Below are positions 5,729 through 19,210 of a stretch of DNA of 64,000 nt, piece after piece (the stretch's first letter is position 1; each line of letters begins with the position of its first letter). Location of the stretch: the NCBI RefSeq assembly GCF_022811725.1, contig NZ_CP094527.1, positions 620,001 to 684,000 of the forward strand. Direction: 5' to 3'. The stretch comes from Mucilaginibacter sp. SMC90 (GTDB lineage Bacteria; Bacteroidota; Bacteroidia; Sphingobacteriales; Sphingobacteriaceae). Under the pieces are notes generated by a model that saw only the letters and a list, made by a program, of their open reading frames with translations, was not told the DNA's origin and made no database searches. A program made the position numbers and the translations under genes.

Positions 5729-5753
5729 TAATTGCCATGAACTAACTGTATAA

Positions 5754-5781
5754 AGAAGCCTTTGGATGTTCAAAGGCTTCT
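5754..5781. terminator. Bidirectional Rho-independent terminator
   Basis: An 11-bp perfect stem (AGAAGCCTTTG pairing with CAAAGGCTTCT) with a six-base loop, lying between the convergent ends of the ABM gene (5728) and the minus-strand gene ending at 5796. AT-rich sequence flanks both sides. Confidence 0.75.
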
Positions 5782-5795
5782 CTATTTAAATATCT

Positions 5796-6221
5796 TCAAG
5801 CCGTTAAACCGCGTAATATATCTAACCTGTTAGCCGGGGCGTTCGGAGATAAAAAATCAGGGATTGTATTTTCGTTTCTTTTGGGGCGACTTAAAAACTC
5901 AACCGGCCACTCTGCAATTCTTTGCTCTTTAATATGCATGTATTTACCAGGCTGAGGCTCGGCTATATATTCTTTCTGTAAAATGAGCGCCAATGGATCT
6001 TCGCATCCCTGATTTTCTTTTGAAAATTCAAGTGCGTCTTCATAGTTATCAAAAACATAATAATAATCGTCACCGTCTTCAATATCGGGTGCTCCTGCGC
6101 CTGGGTGGCACCAAACCCGGTATTCAAGTACTTCGTCCCAAACGTAACCGCCTCCCGATTTAACCAGTGCCGGATACGTTCCCACCATCTCGGTGCTTTT
6201 AACTTTTGGGTATGCCGACAT
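5796..6221 (-). CDS. Conserved hypothetical protein, 141 aa
   Basis: A soluble 141-residue protein with a distinctive conserved-looking core: GGYVWDEVLEYRVWCHP, an acidic tract (DIEDGDDYYYVFDNYEDAL) and a C-terminal WPVEFLSRPKR. Similar proteins are sometimes labelled as acetyltransferase-related, but I see no acetyl-CoA-binding motif (Q/R-x-x-G-x-G/A) and would not assign that. No signal peptide or membrane span. It is transcribed in the same direction as the methyltransferase gene upstream (57 bases apart). Confidence 0.7.
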   Translation of the reverse strand: MSAYPKVKSTEMVGTYPALVKSGGGYVWDEVLEYRVWCHPGAGAPDIEDGDDYYYVFDNYEDALEFSKENQGCEDPLALILQKEYIAEPQPGKYMHIKEQRIAEWPVEFLSRPKRNENTIPDFLSPNAPANRLDILRGLTA

Positions 6222-6902: not shown

Positions 6903-6952
6903 AAGTTTATTTCGGATGCTGCCAATTTAACTACAATAGCCTTTAAAATCAA

Positions 6953-6980
6953 AAGCCCCCGGATTTTTATCCGGAGGCTT
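6953..6980 (-). terminator. Rho-independent terminator after the aldo/keto reductase gene
   Basis: GC-rich hairpin: AAGCCTCCGGAT pairs (one mismatch) with ATCCGGGGGCTT across a short loop. On the minus strand it is followed by a T-rich run (TTTTGATTTT), placing it correctly for termination of the gene that ends at 7008. Confidence 0.8.
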
Positions 6981-7007
6981 ATAAATAGTTTTAACGTAAT
7001 GGCAGCA

Positions 7008-9535: not shown

Positions 9536-10123
9536 ATGATCTTCAAGTACTTTAAAGGCCCAATTGATGAAATGAGCAGCCTTGTAAACGAAACTTCAAT
9601 TTGCTCCATTTGTAAAAAGACAGATCATTGTTTTGAATTAGATTACACAATTACTGACGTATTCAATGATGATGACAAAGAGGGAAAGCTTGGATGTTAC
9701 GCTTGCTTGCGGGAAGGGCGTTTTGAATTTTGGCACGATACTGAATTTGGATTGCTTGATGAAAATGGGCTGGATAATATTTATAAACGTGATATAGCCG
9801 TGCCGGCTTCACTTGCCATTGAAAAACTAACAGAATTAAAAAGAACCCCGCAATTCATAACCTGGCAACAAGGGTTATGGCTAACTCATTGCGATGATTT
9901 TATGGTTTATAAAGGCACGTGGGAGCCAAAAGATTTTTATTCAAATAGTAAGGATGGTGATGGGAAAGCCCTTTTTATGAGCATGACAGATGAGGACATG
10001 AATCATTTATGGGACGATAGCTTGCCAGAAAACAAAAACATACTGGAAGAATGGTATTCAACCTACTATGTTTTTGAATGCAGCCATTGCGGCAAATTAC
10101 GGGGTAATTGGGATTGCGATTAA
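9536..10123 (+). CDS. CbrC-like (UPF0167) family protein
   Basis: 195 residues beginning IFKYFKGPIDEMSSLV, the usual opening of the CbrC/UPF0167 family (FxYFxxP). Cysteine pairs suggest zinc binding: CSICKKTD near 22-29, CYACLREG near 55, and a C-terminal CSHCGKLRGNWDCD. E. coli CbrC has been linked genetically to colicin E2 tolerance, but the biochemical role is unknown. The gene is more AT-rich than its neighbours, which hints at transfer. No signal peptide. Confidence 0.75.
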   Translation: MIFKYFKGPIDEMSSLVNETSICSICKKTDHCFELDYTITDVFNDDDKEGKLGCYACLREGRFEFWHDTEFGLLDENGLDNIYKRDIAVPASLAIEKLTELKRTPQFITWQQGLWLTHCDDFMVYKGTWEPKDFYSNSKDGDGKALFMSMTDEDMNHLWDDSLPENKNILEEWYSTYYVFECSHCGKLRGNWDCD

Positions 10124-14719: not shown

Positions 14720-14799
14720 GTATTAGTGACTCTTAAACGCTCAAATCCGAGTTTATTTACAGAGGATTTAAAACTATCAATTGAACTGGCGATACTATT

Positions 14800-15558
14800 T
14801 TAAAAACCATACATACCCCCTGAAACGGAAATTTGCTCTCCCGTAATCCACGCTGCATCATCAGAAGCAAGAAATACAACCGCCTTCGCAATATCTTCGG
14901 GCTGCCCTCTGCGCCCGAGGGGAGTGTTGGCAATAAACATTTTTTCATACTCACTACCGGTAGTGACGCCCGCACTGGTTGCTCCTTCTGTTTCCGTAGC
15001 TCCCGGCAAAACAGAATTGATACGAATGTTTTTTGCACCCAGTTCTTTCGACAAGGAGATAGTTATGGCATCTAATGCCGCTTTAGTTGCAGAATACAAC
15101 GAGGCAGCGGGAAGAGGATACTTGCTTGCACCCGAACTGATATTGATGATGTTGCCGCCTTTGTCGCCAAACAGTTTTAAAGATGCCTTGATAGCAAGTA
15201 TTGGGCCCAAAACATTAACGTTGAAATGCTGATGAAAAGCTTCTGCCGATGCCTGTTCAATAGGTAAAAATTGCTGAAAGACAGCGTTGTTTACCAAAAT
15301 ATCCAACGAGCCGAAAGCATTCACGGTTTCTTCAAACAGCCTGGTTACATCGGCTTCTTTTGATACATCGGCCTGTACCGAAATGGCCAAGCCTCCATTG
15401 TCCGTTATCTTCTTAACTACGCTATCTGCGCCTTCTTTGCTTGAGGCATAATTTACAACAACTTTTGCGCCTTCTGCTGCAAAATGTTTTGCGATAGATG
15501 CACCTATTCCTTTTGAAGCACCGGTAACTACCGCTACTTTGTTTTTTAATTTATTCAT
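14800..15558 (-). CDS. SDR family NAD(P)-dependent oxidoreductase (first of pair)
   Basis: 252 residues, classical short-chain dehydrogenase. The cofactor motif TGASKGIG lies at 12-19, NNA near 90, catalytic Ser about 142 and Y155-x-x-x-K159 in LYSATKAAL. The closing AAWITGEQISVSGGMYGF is typical of the FabG-like group. Substrate unknown. It is downstream of a second SDR gene in the same direction, with a 9-bp hairpin between them, so the two are probably co-expressed under the divergent HxlR regulator. Confidence 0.92.
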   Translation of the reverse strand: MNKLKNKVAVVTGASKGIGASIAKHFAAEGAKVVVNYASSKEGADSVVKKITDNGGLAISVQADVSKEADVTRLFEETVNAFGSLDILVNNAVFQQFLPIEQASAEAFHQHFNVNVLGPILAIKASLKLFGDKGGNIINISSGASKYPLPAASLYSATKAALDAITISLSKELGAKNIRINSVLPGATETEGATSAGVTTGSEYEKMFIANTPLGRRGQPEDIAKAVVFLASDDAAWITGEQISVSGGMYGF

Positions 15559-15578
15559 TTTGAAAATTTTAATTAGTT

Positions 15579-15606
15579 GCTGGCACGTTTAAAAACCCGT
15601 GCCAGC
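15579..15606 (-). terminator. Intergenic hairpin between the two SDR genes
   Basis: A perfect 9-bp stem (GCTGGCACG with CGTGCCAGC) and a ten-base loop in the 58-base gap. It lacks a T-tract on the minus strand, so it is more likely a partial terminator or an RNA-stability or processing element in a shared transcript than a full stop. Confidence 0.5.
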
Positions 15607-15616
15607 TTGAGGTTAA

Positions 15617-16369
15617 TTATTTAGCCAAATAGGTCATACCACCATCAACAAGGAGTTCAGCACCAAGCATAAACGAAGAATCGTCAGAGGCCAGGAAAAC
15701 CGCTGTTTTACCAATGTCAGATGGCTGCCCGATTCTGCCTATTGGCATCTGATCAGCAAAGTGTTTTTTTACAGCTTCAATTTGTTCTGCGGGAACAAAC
15801 TTGTCAAATGCCGGTGTATCCGTTGTACCTGGCGTTATAACATTTGCCCTGATCTTTCTATCTAAAAGGTCGCTTGAAAAACCCTTTGCTAAATAGATCA
15901 CGGCCGCTTTTGCAGCACCATACAGCGTAAATGATGGATAGGCCCGGTGCGCCGCATTTGACCCGATAAGAATAATAGAACCACCATCATTCATATAAGG
16001 CAGTGCTTTTTGAACAGTGAAGTAAACACTTTTCAGGTTCAGATCAATTGCCTTGTCAAAGTCGGCTTCGCTAAAAGTTGCCACGGTTCCTACAGCTCCA
16101 CCACCCGCATTGGCTACGATCACGTCAATTTTACCAAATTTTTCGGCTGTTTCTTTGAACACCCTTTCCAGGTGGGCAAGGTTGGTTACATCGGCATTTA
16201 TGGCTATAAAATTATCGCCAAGCTGAGCCACGGCACTATCTAAAGTTTCCTGATTTCTGCCGATAATAGCTCCAACACCGCCTTCGTTTTTAAATGCTTC
16301 AGCAATACCAAACCCGATACCGCTATTGCCGCCTGTAATAACGGCTACTTTATTTTTTAATCTGCTCAT
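15617..16369 (-). CDS. SDR family oxidoreductase (second of pair)
   Basis: 250 residues from the ATG at 16369 (MSRLKNKVAVITGG). The frame is open up to 16540, but the extra 57 residues cover the promoter region and the divergent HxlR start and are not SDR-like. Motifs: TGGNSGIG 12-19, ANAG 86-89, catalytic S137, Y150-x-x-x-K154 in LYGAAKAAV, C-terminal GAELLVDGGMTYL. Substrate unknown. The promoter element TACCTTTG and an overlapping palindrome lie just upstream, shared with the HxlR gene. Confidence 0.92.
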   Translation of the reverse strand: MSRLKNKVAVITGGNSGIGFGIAEAFKNEGGVGAIIGRNQETLDSAVAQLGDNFIAINADVTNLAHLERVFKETAEKFGKIDVIVANAGGGAVGTVATFSEADFDKAIDLNLKSVYFTVQKALPYMNDGGSIILIGSNAAHRAYPSFTLYGAAKAAVIYLAKGFSSDLLDRKIRANVITPGTTDTPAFDKFVPAEQIEAVKKHFADQMPIGRIGQPSDIGKTAVFLASDDSSFMLGAELLVDGGMTYLAK

Positions 16370-16394
16370 TGTTTCTTTTTTTAAGATTGAGCGA

Positions 16395-16402
16395 CAAAGG
16401 TA
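16395..16402 (-). promoter_or_regulatory. Bacteroidota -7 promoter element (TACCTTTG) of the SDR operon
   Basis: Exact TAnnTTTG match on the minus strand, 26 bases before the SDR start codon at 16369. The palindrome at 16410-16430 lies where the -33 contact would be. Confidence 0.6.
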
Positions 16403-16409
16403 GAGCAGT

Positions 16410-16430
16410 AAAGTTATTTTTAGTAACTTT
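16410..16430. promoter_or_regulatory. Palindromic operator candidate for the HxlR regulator
   Basis: A perfect 7-bp inverted repeat, AAAGTTA and TAACTTT, separated by 7 bases. It sits in the -33 region of the SDR promoter and overlaps the plus-strand TAACTTTG element (16424-16431) that could serve the HxlR gene. HxlR dimers bind such dyads, so it is a good candidate for joint repression or autoregulation. A second perfect palindrome, ACACCGGTGT, lies at 16450-16459 within the HxlR leader. Confidence 0.6.
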
Positions 16431-16431
16431 G
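16424..16431 (+). promoter_or_regulatory. Bacteroidota -7 promoter element (TAACTTTG) of the HxlR gene
   Basis: Exact TAnnTTTG match on the plus strand, about 40 bases before the HxlR start codon, and embedded in the right arm of the 16410-16430 palindrome. Confidence 0.5.
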
Positions 16432-16470
16432 TACTGAAAAGTAATGGTAACACCGGTGTAACTAAGTAAC

Positions 16471-16830
16471 ATGACGACGTGTAAAATAACAGAGTTTCAG
16501 CAGGATCAAAAGAAGAGGATGAGGTCCGTACAGGATGCAATGGATGCCTTGAACGGGAAATGGAAGATTGCTATTATTTCGTCGATCTGCTGTTACGGCA
16601 AAAGAAGATTTTCTGATATTCTGAATGATGTTGAAGGGGTTTCAAACAGAATGCTGAGCAAAGAATTAAAAGAACTGGAAATAAATCAGTTAGTGAAACG
16701 GACCGTTTTACCTACACAACCCATAACTGTTGAATATGAATTGACGGAACACGGTAACACGCTGCAAACCATCATCACCGAACTTTCAGATTGGGGAATT
16801 GTACACCGGAAGAAAATTGTCGGGAAATAA
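16471..16830 (+). CDS. HxlR family winged-helix transcriptional regulator
   Basis: 119 residues of a typical HxlR/DUF24 domain: ALNGKWKIAIISSI, then RFSDILNDVEGVSNRMLSKE (recognition helix), LKELEINQLVKRTV and YELTEHGNTLQTII. These regulators control neighbouring oxidoreductase genes and often respond to reactive aldehydes, quinones or redox stress through a cysteine; Cys residues are present near the start (TTCKIT) and in SICCYG. It is divergent from the two SDR genes with palindromes in the shared promoter, so it very probably regulates them. Confidence 0.92.
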   Translation: MTTCKITEFQQDQKKRMRSVQDAMDALNGKWKIAIISSICCYGKRRFSDILNDVEGVSNRMLSKELKELEINQLVKRTVLPTQPITVEYELTEHGNTLQTIITELSDWGIVHRKKIVGK

Positions 16831-16942
16831 TGGTCGTTATTTGTTGAGTGCGAAGCTTACTAAATAGTCACGAGTACTCTGCCCTCAATCCAATCGCTGC
16901 ATACTCGCGCCAGTGAGAGAAAAAAGTAGAAACTGGGATTAA

Positions 16943-17077
16943 CTACCCTTTTATTGCCTCCAATGTATCGGCGTTCTTTTCCTGGCTGGGTTGTTTAACG
17001 GTTACTTCTACATTGTTAGGAAGAAGTTGATTAGTTTGTGGATATGAAAAAAAAAGATTTCGTACGTAACCAACCAT
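16943..17077 (-). other. Possible 44-codon ORF or gene fragment
   Basis: On the minus strand an ATG at 17077 opens 44 codons (MVGYVRNLFFSYPQTNQ to the end ADTLEAIKG) and stops at 16943-16945. The last two thirds (LLPNNVEVTVKQPSQEKN) read like real protein, but there is a nine-base homopolymer inside, no visible ribosome site and no recognisable family. It may be a truncated 3' end of a lost gene. Confidence 0.25.
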
Positions 17078-17108
17078 AACTATGATAATGTAGTATCGCT
17101 TAGGAATA

Positions 17109-17333
17109 TCATTTTATCCAATAACCTGTTACAGCGCCAACAATAGTGCCACCAACATCCTTGTTACCTGTAGCAAATAGGTAAGTAGATAATAAAATCA
17201 ATAAACAAGATATCACAATGCGCCCGATAACTTTATTTTTGTCTTCTTTTGTTACCTGTTCTCCGCCAGCGTGGATGCCAGAATTTAAAATTCTCTTAGT
17301 CTCATTAATTGTTGTTCCAAAAAGCTTTATCAT
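17109..17333 (-). CDS. Hypothetical small membrane protein, 74 aa
   Basis: A soluble N-terminal half (FGTTINETKRILNSGIHAGG), a charged linker (TKEDKNK) and one or two hydrophobic segments near 38-54 and 60-72 (RIVISCLLILLSTYLF, then GGTIVGAVTGYW). It starts three bases after the stop of the heptad-repeat lipoprotein gene, so the two are almost certainly one operon and may work together at the envelope. No family recognised. The gene is AT-rich compared with the surrounding chromosome. Confidence 0.65.
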   Translation of the reverse strand: MIKLFGTTINETKRILNSGIHAGGEQVTKEDKNKVIGRIVISCLLILLSTYLFATGNKDVGGTIVGAVTGYWIK

Positions 17334-17336
17334 ATT

Positions 17337-18293
17337 TTAGGATTCAGATTGGCTATAATATGCAGTAAGTCCTACTGAACCTATAAATGCAGTACCAATG
17401 CCAAAGTATATAAGAGTTTGTTTTTGATGATGGCGTGCCATATGTGAATAATAAATGGCAGTAAAATTATTGTAGAATTCACTTAATGTAGAATTGTTGA
17501 CTGCACTATTTACTCCTTCAATTACTGCTCTCATGTCTAATAAATCTGTTGAAGTAAGGAATGCTTCTGGATTAACTGTGAAACTATTACAAGTAATAAT
17601 ATTCGTTTTACGGTTAAGTTGCATAAAACTTGCAGCCTTCACATTGTTATGAAAAACAACAACGGGGATTTCGCCATTTTCAATTATTTCTCTTTCAAAT
17701 TTAAGTACCTCATCATATGAAGAAGCCCTTTGTACTCTTGATACTTGGTTGATTTCTGAAGCATACTTAATTAGCAATTTGGCATTCTCATCATCAAGAT
17801 CGTACAGGTTTTTAGTTACATCAACCTCATCTGAAATTAAAAAGACTACTTTATAGGATTTCTTCTGCTGATCCATAAATGCCTTTTTATTATGAACAAA
17901 TTTGACCTTTCTGGCAATTAAGTGTGCCGCCTCTTCTGATGTTACCACATCGTTAACATACAAATTCGTTGCTTGCTCAAAAGGGATATCGTCAAACTTG
18001 TTATAAATATAGCCTCTATACGTATAGGTACCGTCAGAATTTTTTCTAAATTCGTTAATCTTTGCTGCTACTACCTCTGCATTTGCTGTAACAGCTTCAC
18101 TTCTCTCGACTGCTCGAGCAACGTCATCACTGTGAGTTGCGACATCATCTGCGTGTCTTGCAACATCATCTGCATGCTTTGCGACATCATCTGCATACTT
18201 AGCACAACCTTTTAATAACGCTCCACAACTCATTAAACAGGTGCATAGCAAAATAGTCGTGAATGATGAAAACGTGAATTTGATATTTTTCAT
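17337..18293 (-). CDS. Lipoprotein with N-terminal heptad repeats and C-terminal membrane segment
   Basis: 318 residues. A lipoprotein signal ends in lipobox LMSC (Cys23). It is followed by four tandem heptads at 34-61 (ADDVAKH, ADDVARH, ADDVATH, SDDVARA) that predict a short coiled coil. The middle looks alpha/beta (KVVFLISDEVDV, then GEIPVVVFHNN and TNIITCNSF). A hydrophobic segment at about 294-314 (LIYFGIGTAFIGSVG) could anchor the C-terminus. No family recognised. The heptads are encoded by four 21-bp direct repeats. AT-rich composition suggests recent acquisition. Operon with the 74-residue membrane protein. Confidence 0.75.
   Translation of the reverse strand: MKNIKFTFSSFTTILLCTCLMSCGALLKGCAKYADDVAKHADDVARHADDVATHSDDVARAVERSEAVTANAEVVAAKINEFRKNSDGTYTYRGYIYNKFDDIPFEQATNLYVNDVVTSEEAAHLIARKVKFVHNKKAFMDQQKKSYKVVFLISDEVDVTKNLYDLDDENAKLLIKYASEINQVSRVQRASSYDEVLKFEREIIENGEIPVVVFHNNVKAASFMQLNRKTNIITCNSFTVNPEAFLTSTDLLDMRAVIEGVNSAVNNSTLSEFYNNFTAIYYSHMARHHQKQTLIYFGIGTAFIGSVGLTAYYSQSES
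18118..18201 (-). repeat. Four 21-bp tandem repeats inside the lipoprotein gene
   Basis: Units at 18118, 18139, 18160 and 18181 share the core GACATCATCTGC(A/G)T; the first unit is the most diverged. Each encodes one heptad (A/S-D-D-V-A-x-x), so copy number changes keep the frame and could vary coiled-coil length. Confidence 0.85.
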
Positions 18294-18606
18294 AATTAAG
18301 CACTTTAGATTTCAAAATTTAAAGAATCATAATTAAGTTAAATCTTTGATTGAGAAACGTTATAAACGGTTTCATTTGCCGAAGAATTACACAACGTAAT
18401 AGAAATACAACTATCTGATATACAATATATAAATCAATATTCGTATTTCCAAATTATTTATTTAATCCTAACAGAATAAATAAATAATAAGTCAAACTGA
18501 AGCAATTTCGTCAGCAGTCTATTAACCCATTTTAATCTACTTTAAAGTCAATTGGATTTAGCCTGTGGTCGGTGTTATCACCGCACCACCAAATAAGGAA
18601 ATCTAA
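18294..18606. other. AT-rich non-coding stretch upstream of the lipoprotein gene
   Basis: About 310 bases of AT-rich DNA with no supported ORF or RNA gene. It presumably holds the promoter for the minus-strand lipoprotein operon, but no TAnnTTTG element was confirmed. Confidence 0.5.
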
Positions 18607-18714
18607 CAAAAAAAGCCTTCAAACTTACTTCTAAAGGCTTTTGATAATCTTCCCATGCAGAGCTCCCCATGGATGGGTTAAAATGTGGTCTTTAGACTAC
18701 AAAACTCGAACTCT
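18607..18714 (-). pseudogene. Decayed copy of tRNA-Arg 3' end plus terminator
   Basis: On the minus strand this holds a T-loop-like GAGTTCGAG, a GACCAC end, the shared string GCATGGGAAGATTAT and a hairpin (AAAAGCCTT with AAGGCTTTT at 18611-18642). The same order is seen at the intact tRNA-Arg(CCT) and its terminator at 19063-19163. The T-stem no longer pairs, so it is not a functional tRNA. It may be an old tRNA duplicate or a degenerate integration end. Confidence 0.55.
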
Positions 18715-18778
18715 TTTATGAGTGATTTGTATTGTGCAGCGGGTTTAGAGGATAATTACATTCCGTGATACTTTAAGT

Positions 18779-19012
18779 TTAGGAATGGTGTTCCGTATTA
18801 CAACTGAAACACCACCAATACTCTAAATCATCATCTTTTAAAAGAGACTCAGATTTATTTTTACACACAGCGCATATTCTTTCATTCCTTTCATCTTCCA
18901 AAACCCTATAGTCACACTTGTGACAATACCACGTCGTTATTTCATAAGGGTCGCCATCGCTACTCCATAAAAAACTTTCACTGCGGCACTTAGGGCAAAT
19001 TTGAAAAGCCAT
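18779..19012 (-). CDS. Small double zinc-ribbon protein, 77 aa
   Basis: Four CxxC pairs spaced as two zinc ribbons: CPKC (6-9), CHKC (30-33), CAVC (47-50) and CFSC (68-71). Charged residues surround them (LEDERNERI, LLKDDDLEYW). No other domain fits in this length. Function unknown; such proteins bind nucleic acids or protein partners. It lies between the intact tRNA-Arg and its decayed copy, and shares the AT-rich composition of this islet. Confidence 0.75.
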   Translation of the reverse strand: MAFQICPKCRSESFLWSSDGDPYEITTWYCHKCDYRVLEDERNERICAVCKNKSESLLKDDDLEYWWCFSCNTEHHS

Positions 19013-19062
19013 TCTTAATCAATATTGAAGTGTATAAATATAACATAGAATATGGGTTCAAC

Positions 19063-19097
19063 AAAAAAGCCTCCAGATATCCATCTAAAGGCTTTTC
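19063..19097 (-). terminator. Rho-independent terminator of tRNA-Arg
   Basis: An 8-bp stem (AAAAGCCT with AGGCTTTT) plus an inner AGAT/ATCT pairing, followed on the minus strand by six T. It lies about 40 bases beyond the tRNA 3' end. Confidence 0.8.
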
Positions 19098-19138
19098 TAA
19101 TAATCTTCCCATGCTTGGCATACAGTGGGTCATTTCAG

Positions 19139-19210
19139 TGGTCCTGACGGGAATCGAACCCATATCTAAAGTTTAGGAAACTTCTATTCTATCCGTTGAA
19201 CTACAGAACC
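19139..19210 (-). tRNA. tRNA-Arg (anticodon CCT)
   Basis: 72 nt on the minus strand. Acceptor GGTTCTG pairs with CAGGACC, discriminator A. D-stem GTTC/GAAT with GG in the loop. Anticodon stem GAAGT/ACTTT with loop TTCCTAA, anticodon CCT (reads AGG). T-arm ATGGG-TTCGATT-CCCGT. All stems close with only G-T wobbles. CCA is not encoded. This tRNA flanks the AT-rich islet. Confidence 0.93.

Follow-up and report, generated by a model that had tools for sequence, protein, structure and literature searches.

The 64,000-nucleotide (nt) window that we analysed from Mucilaginibacter sp. SMC90 (NZ_CP094527.1, positions 620,001–684,000) contains an AT-rich islet at 17109–19210, which includes the gene for tRNA-Arg(CCT). 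We consider it likely that this islet forms the end nearest the tRNA of an array of small gene cassettes that lack an integrase and insert site-specifically at the 3′ end of the tRNA gene, each built from a left end with a terminator hairpin, then mostly one or two genes, then a conserved right-end site of ~65 nt ending in GGACCAC. This reading is based on the uniform orientation of the sites, their 7-nt joint with the tRNA, shared left ends, the similarity of cassettes between species, their low GC content, the presence of tyrosine-recombinase elements at the same tRNA, and the higher scores of sites that lie nearer to the tRNA. Codes of the type G000 denote the genus genomes compared, and L codes denote loci or stretches.

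The tRNA-Arg(CCT) gene, the proposed insertion target, lies intact on the minus strand at 19138–19210 (19139–19210 by Rfam), and its last 7 nt, GGACCAC, are the proposed crossover. Cassette 1 extends from 18685 to 19137 and comprises, all on the minus strand, a left end with a terminator hairpin (a B-type block matched by the left-end profile; 19057–19135), a gene for a 77-residue double zinc-ribbon-like protein with no Pfam match over the cut-off (18779–19012) and a right-end site matched by the site profile and ending in AGACCAC (18685–18756). Cassette 2 begins at 18684. Its left end and terminator hairpin (18607–18678, minus strand) are recognized by the block repeat and the left-end profile, and its cargo, also on the minus strand, encodes a 318-residue lipoprotein-like protein with short direct repeats (17337–18293) and a 74-residue small membrane-like protein (17109–17333); no closing site was found between 16850 and 17109. 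The terminator block is present twice, at 19063–19096 and 18609–18642 (82% identical), and the adjoining 20 nt are repeated as well (19095–19114 and 18639–18658, 90%). The left-end profile matched 19135–19057 with an E value of 1.9 × 10−21, this locus being one of its 12 seeds, and 18678–18607 with an E value of 2.7 × 10−14. GC content was 0.341 for 17000–19137 compared with 0.430 for the whole window, and 1 of 1,238 sliding windows of the same length was as low. A Pfam search with the three islet proteins gave no integrase match. Their genes are rare: among the 149 genus genomes, the lipoprotein was found in its own genome and as one 28% match (E = 4.5 × 10−4), and the zinc ribbon in its own genome and as one 51% match. 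The initial annotation, made from the sequence of this stretch, had described the intact tRNA, the duplicated terminator, the AT-richness and the lack of an integrase, and in all of these respects it was right; the cargo is, moreover, missing from most relatives.

It had further interpreted 18607–18714 as a decayed copy of the tRNA 3′ region and terminator. The terminator part of this claim stands, as a second block at 18607–18678; the rest belongs to a conserved site of ~70 nt (18685–18756), in which just 7 continuous nt (GGACCAC) match the 3′ end of the tRNA. In 18600–18790, Rfam gave no tRNA-like match at E values up to 10, the T-loop-like GAGTTCGA, formerly taken for a broken T-loop, stands at a distance from the 3′ end that differs from that in the tRNA, and the ~65 nt before GGACCAC are kept in other species yet unlike tRNA, scattered positions excepted. 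On the Rfam result and the confinement of the tRNA match to the 7-nt run we reject a decayed tRNA at 18685–18756. We conclude that each terminator block is the left end of a cassette, the two cassettes being successive, and that the sequence beside the inner block is the right-end site of cassette 1. The suggestion that the islet is the remains of an inserted element holds for inserted AT-rich material at the tRNA that lacks an integrase, and fails for a decayed attL/attR pair.

Searches with islet DNA found that pieces of the supposed tRNA copy recur near this tRNA in other species, including the part that is least like a tRNA. We took the tRNA-Arg(CCT) locus from 133 of the 149 genus genomes, all turned to tRNA orientation; the other 16 fell outside this set (place not listed, locus not retrieved or no match). 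The consensus of 22 aligned sites is AAATTnTCCTCCAAACCCGCnGCACAATGCAAATCAGCCATAAAAGAGTTCGAGTTTTGTAGTCTAAGGACCAC. A profile of these 22 sites found 51 sites, its training set among them, at E ≤ 10−3 in 30 of the 133 loci, leaving 103 loci without a site. All 51 lie downstream on the tRNA strand, with none reversed and none upstream, where only some 1–2 kb was examined. The match in the window is more than chance, since a profile of 21 sites from other genomes, built without this one, found 18756–18685 with an E value of 2.1 × 10−22, and its next best place in the window reached only 0.4. Pattern searching with up to three mismatches gave 30 sites in 24 of 149 genomes and none with the reversed pattern as control; 26 were on the tRNA contig, downstream and in tRNA orientation, and four were on another contig (G128, G131, G137 and G142). 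Of 399 genomes sampled across the family, 17 contained the pattern, and all of these belong to one genus. An exact-pattern scan of named genomes returned 11 stretches, ten titled Mucilaginibacter and one a ‘Bacteroidetes bacterium’ metagenome-assembled genome, and exact matching against viral contigs returned none.

We examined the joint with the tRNA in the 31 of 51 sites that reach the last profile column in full. These agreed with the tRNA consensus in 13% of cases at position −8 and in 87–100% at positions −7 to −1; deeper in the site, a few agreeing positions (−10, −15, −20, −25 and −30 to −28) were scattered among disagreeing ones. The site end equalled the last 7 nt of the genome’s own tRNA in 19 of 31 cases and in none when slid by 1, 2 or 3 nt either way. 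The same families of left-end and terminator blocks come after both the tRNA and the sites. Because continuous agreement begins at the seventh-last base of the tRNA and the same terminator blocks follow tRNA and sites, GGACCAC is likely to be the segment of strand exchange. The tRNA itself is left whole: ARAGORN identified a tRNA in the 133 loci, whose sequences are unlike from the first base after it. Sites were present in 28 of 96 genomes whose tRNA ends in GGACCAC and in 2 of 37 others (P = 0.0024, not corrected for relatedness). The cassette sites have no longer run than this in common with the tRNA; repeats of 14–36 nt occur in seven other loci. The sequences themselves show that the site is conserved, occurs in a single orientation and agrees sharply with the tRNA over 7 nt.

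Measured from one joint to the next, a unit starts with a left end, which usually has a terminator; one or two genes follow in most cases, on either strand, and the site forms the right end. No intact integrase was found within the cassettes. Thirty of 38 site-to-site intervals measured 454–2,304 bp; the other eight (3.1–11.9 kb) may hold undetected joints. Median GC content was 0.348 in cassettes compared with 0.444 in the other tRNA flank and was lower in 38 of 41 cassettes, those outside 150–3,300 bp being left out of the count. With a strict detector that misses the window’s own hairpin, 107 of 132 loci showed a terminator-like hairpin no more than 110 nt from the tRNA, compared with 16 of 372 windows placed at random downstream; such a hairpin also followed 25 of the 51 sites. 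Where an A- or B-type left end adjoined the tRNA, a site lay within 3.5 kb in 17 of 29 loci, compared with 2 of 19 loci that had the terminator part only and 5 of 74 other loci; loci with less than 3.5 kb downstream were left out. Thirteen of 20 hand-picked cassette proteins had no Pfam match at E = 0.001, and the other picked proteins include a zeta toxin, an ADH/AraC pair, a GH32 enzyme, a UPF0167/CbrC-family protein and a NOV_C protein. The last, from the tRNA-proximal cassette gene of G017 (L049, 13860–15146), matches the PD-T4-1 phage-defence model of PADLOC (E = 2 × 10−79). Another integrase-less unit at this tRNA, in G116 (L094), holds 301–1,715 nt past the tRNA two adjacent genes whose products resemble by eye an ATPase and an HNH nuclease, perhaps a defence pair.

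Most of the nine species pairs that we chose for comparison point to transfer between species. As reference we took the 1.5 kb that flank the tRNA on its opposite side, where metG lies in the window, and in seven of the nine pairs the cassette or block was more alike than this flank: G093/G127 (96.7% versus 76.7%), G093/G077 (94.6% versus 72.4%), G127/G077 (94.0% versus 70.9%), G091/G107 (86.0% versus 69.7%), G061/G091 (83.2% versus 71.4%), G096/G097 (85.3% versus 79.3%) and G000/G094 (84–88% versus 79.8%). Within genomes, the site nearer to the tRNA outscored the farther one in 28 of 38 pairs. Judged from these sequences, the same left-end blocks are re-used behind tRNA and sites, cargo turns over and DNA is shared between species.

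We infer a circular intermediate, a crossover, insertion next to the tRNA and a tyrosine recombinase that acts in trans. A circular cassette would recombine through its own GGACCAC with the identical 7 nt that end the tRNA gene; the tRNA would stay whole and gain the terminator of the incoming cassette, and the older terminator and cassettes would be pushed outward behind the new site, insertions taking place one by one.

Several observations weigh against an array of site-specifically inserted cassettes. No recombinase was found that goes with the site, and in G101, whose two sites are well preserved, PF00589 identified three tyrosine recombinases, in a search that covered three site-bearing genomes. 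We saw no circular form and no pair of occupied and empty strains. Two species pairs give no support for transfer, G026/G116 (91.8% versus 92.1% in the flank) and G093/G062 (66.2% versus 72.8%), and in G093/G127 and G093/G077 homology is lost at least 125 nt short of the G093 site, so that cargo and site are not always one piece. The association between left ends and sites is overstated, since sites are present at 11 of the 12 loci that seeded the left-end profile; without seed loci it falls to 6 of 17. Polarity along the array is weak: the near/far comparison, at the 3.5-kb cut first used for the left-end count, gave P = 0.006, first versus later sites P = 0.26 and distance P = 0.08 (Spearman).

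The candidate helper in G101 did not hold up. Two of its recombinases, of ~300 residues, we take for Xer by size and score, and the third adjoins tRNA-Ser(GCT). The closest relatives of this third protein (77–86% identity) are in G107, G131, G093 and G029, and three of these four genomes have pattern sites, compared with 23 of 148 genomes (P = 0.012). We rejected it as a specific helper, as stops occur in three of the four related genes and the gene in G101 is a neighbour of tRNA-Ser(GCT). That tRNA (L256) is also followed by a strong hairpin terminator, and elements at other tRNAs may bring terminators too.

The strongest rival to the cassette array, which we nevertheless regard as unlikely, is that the units are decayed remains of larger integrase elements that once shared one attachment arm, that is, cis-mobilizable elements (CIMEs) left by repeated integration and decay only. 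Elements with an integrase do occupy the same tRNA. Pfam identified tyrosine recombinases with Arm-DNA-bind_5, Phage_int_SAM_5 and Phage_integrase domains there in G014 and G007, and a profile of these found more in G127, G080, G081, G165, G105, G076, G160 and others. On contig C16 of G127, in the stretch from the tRNA at 252.5 kb to ~314 kb, two stacked tyrosine-recombinase elements with exact copies of the tRNA end are followed by three cassette sites, some 58–61 kb from the tRNA. Truncated integrase N termini also stand directly before a site in two genomes. Neither serves as the site’s own integrase: the 373-residue open reading frame (ORF) in G127 is a chimera, integrase-like over its first 220–228 residues and not beyond, and the 90-residue ORF in G116 matches integrases over 58 residues only; we read both as deletion joins and did not count them. 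On the other side, the loci read hold no element that joins an intact recombinase to this site. Five recombinase-element right ends (G007, G127 twice, G081 and G160) are copies of the tRNA end rather than the cassette site, and for the G080 element no right end was found in 98 kb. In addition, 30 of the 38 intervals are only 0.45–2.3 kb long, and several units hold one or two whole genes.

We give far less weight to the idea that the tRNA operon contains the site as a conserved structured RNA or regulatory element, with blocks shuffled by ordinary homologous recombination. The left-end blocks are indeed similar enough for homologous recombination, and they carry terminators. However, three sites folded on both strands, in a test for an attC-like structure, had a stability no greater than that of shuffled sequences (z = −0.99 to 0.64), the tRNA joint spans only 7 nt, and most loci (103 of 133) have no site. 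The other origin offered in the initial annotation, an ancient tandem copy of the tRNA gene that decayed and around which genes gathered later, is barely credible: near-full-length degenerate tRNA copies do lie downstream in G013 and G157, but these are other objects, and the site is not tRNA-like to Rfam, matches the tRNA in the 7-nt run only and is contradicted as a duplicate already by the conservation of its non-tRNA part among species. The two degenerate tRNA-Arg copies, 2,826–2,892 nt past the tRNA in G013 (L050) and about 12.58 kb past it in G157, are unlike cassette sites.

An array of modules seems to extend beyond the islet, which would then be just its tRNA-proximal part. Behind the islet, at 14731–16850, lie an HxlR regulator and two SDR genes, a block that relatives share at other distances from the tRNA and that begins less than 0.45 kb from the tRNA in G006 and G022, as judged from ORFs and homology; it is probably an older module. 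Pointing the same way are a weak match to a second (type II) right-end site at 14731–14791 on the minus strand (E = 0.029), a CbrC-like (PF03691-family) gene at 9536–10123 on the plus strand, whose homologue is tRNA-proximal in G096 and G097, and a left-end-like block on the tRNA strand at 6945–6991 (E = 1.9 × 10−5 with the left-end profile). A further left-end or terminator-like block lies on the tRNA strand at 5750–5797 (E = 0.051), and both blocks are possibly older module boundaries. Type II matches lie directly behind the same SDR gene in G151, G023, G006 and G080; two others (G091 and G118) are not behind that gene or were not checked for position. The type II site was seen 5,567 nt past the tRNA in G026, 11,840 nt in G131, 58,747 nt in G127 and 5,190 nt in G151, and some copies also end near a GACCAC-like stretch. 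Beside the second terminator block of the islet, a 30-bp hairpin-like repeat (18560–18589) is matched at 17 other places in the genome at E ≤ 0.001. One cluster of these matches surrounds an ORF at L009 910–1416 with an NHVHIL motif, which we take to resemble that of REP-associated transposases.

Integrons and clusters of attC sites lacking integron-integrases (CALINs) are one-directional arrays of small cassettes, each with a conserved end site, behind a fixed entry point. The array described here is likewise a one-directional series of small cassettes at a fixed entry, its sites without exception in tRNA orientation. It differs in that the target is a tRNA gene and the three sites folded showed no attC-like structure, and no IntI is known here, although none was searched for by name; we therefore do not file it as an integron. 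It is conceivable, although we doubt it, that we are dealing with a gene-capture system as yet known only from Mucilaginibacter and integron-like in layout, in which the tRNA 3′ end would be the fixed entry and 7 nt of it the crossover, each cassette would bring a dedicated ~65-nt recombination site and a terminator that replaces that of the tRNA, and one trans-acting recombinase would serve all cassettes.

A literature search, with most subscription journals outside its reach, found no paper on this locus. Published accounts describe several related systems. In ‘Ca. Actinomarinales’, gene cassettes that target tRNA genes, with part of the tRNA repeated, form additive flexible genomic islands (PMC7771536), and in Methylophilaceae the island fGI-2 has repeats of the last 20 nt of tRNA-Lys, islands there measuring 330 bp to 42 kb with mostly unknown functions (PMC10872708). 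Both resemble our array in being small units at tRNA genes whose content differs between close strains, whereas here the tRNA match is 7 nt, ~65 nt of non-tRNA end are conserved across species and the unit is small. CIMEs are described as decayed integrative and conjugative elements (ICEs) or integrative and mobilizable elements (IMEs) that keep attL and attR and accrete in tandem with ICEs and IMEs (PMC5704250). Integrase-less units stacked with full elements behind a target gene are common to both; unlike CIMEs as outlined there, the cassettes have no parent ICE or IME with the same site in the loci read, the five recombinase-element right ends included. Tycheposons, given as 4–200 kb with a tyrosine recombinase (PMC10872708), are also cargo elements at tRNA genes, whereas the units here are mostly 0.45–2.3 kb and lack a recombinase. 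The pdif modules of Acinetobacter (PMC6449649, PMC7399989) are likewise gene modules that lack an integrase of their own and are moved through short conserved sites by a recombinase in trans, as we propose here; they are described from plasmids and have Xer sites. The array thus belongs in kind with tRNA-targeted cassettes and ICE/IME accretion, and differs from them in end site and unit size.

These results give definite boundaries to a pool of small, apparently mobile cassettes, many of them with genes of no known function. As neighbouring elements usually bring a terminator, they also suggest how a tRNA gene can be a repeated entry port and stay functional. They also raise a question that can be tested: which recombinase acts on DNA whose end agrees with the target over a run of just 7 nt?
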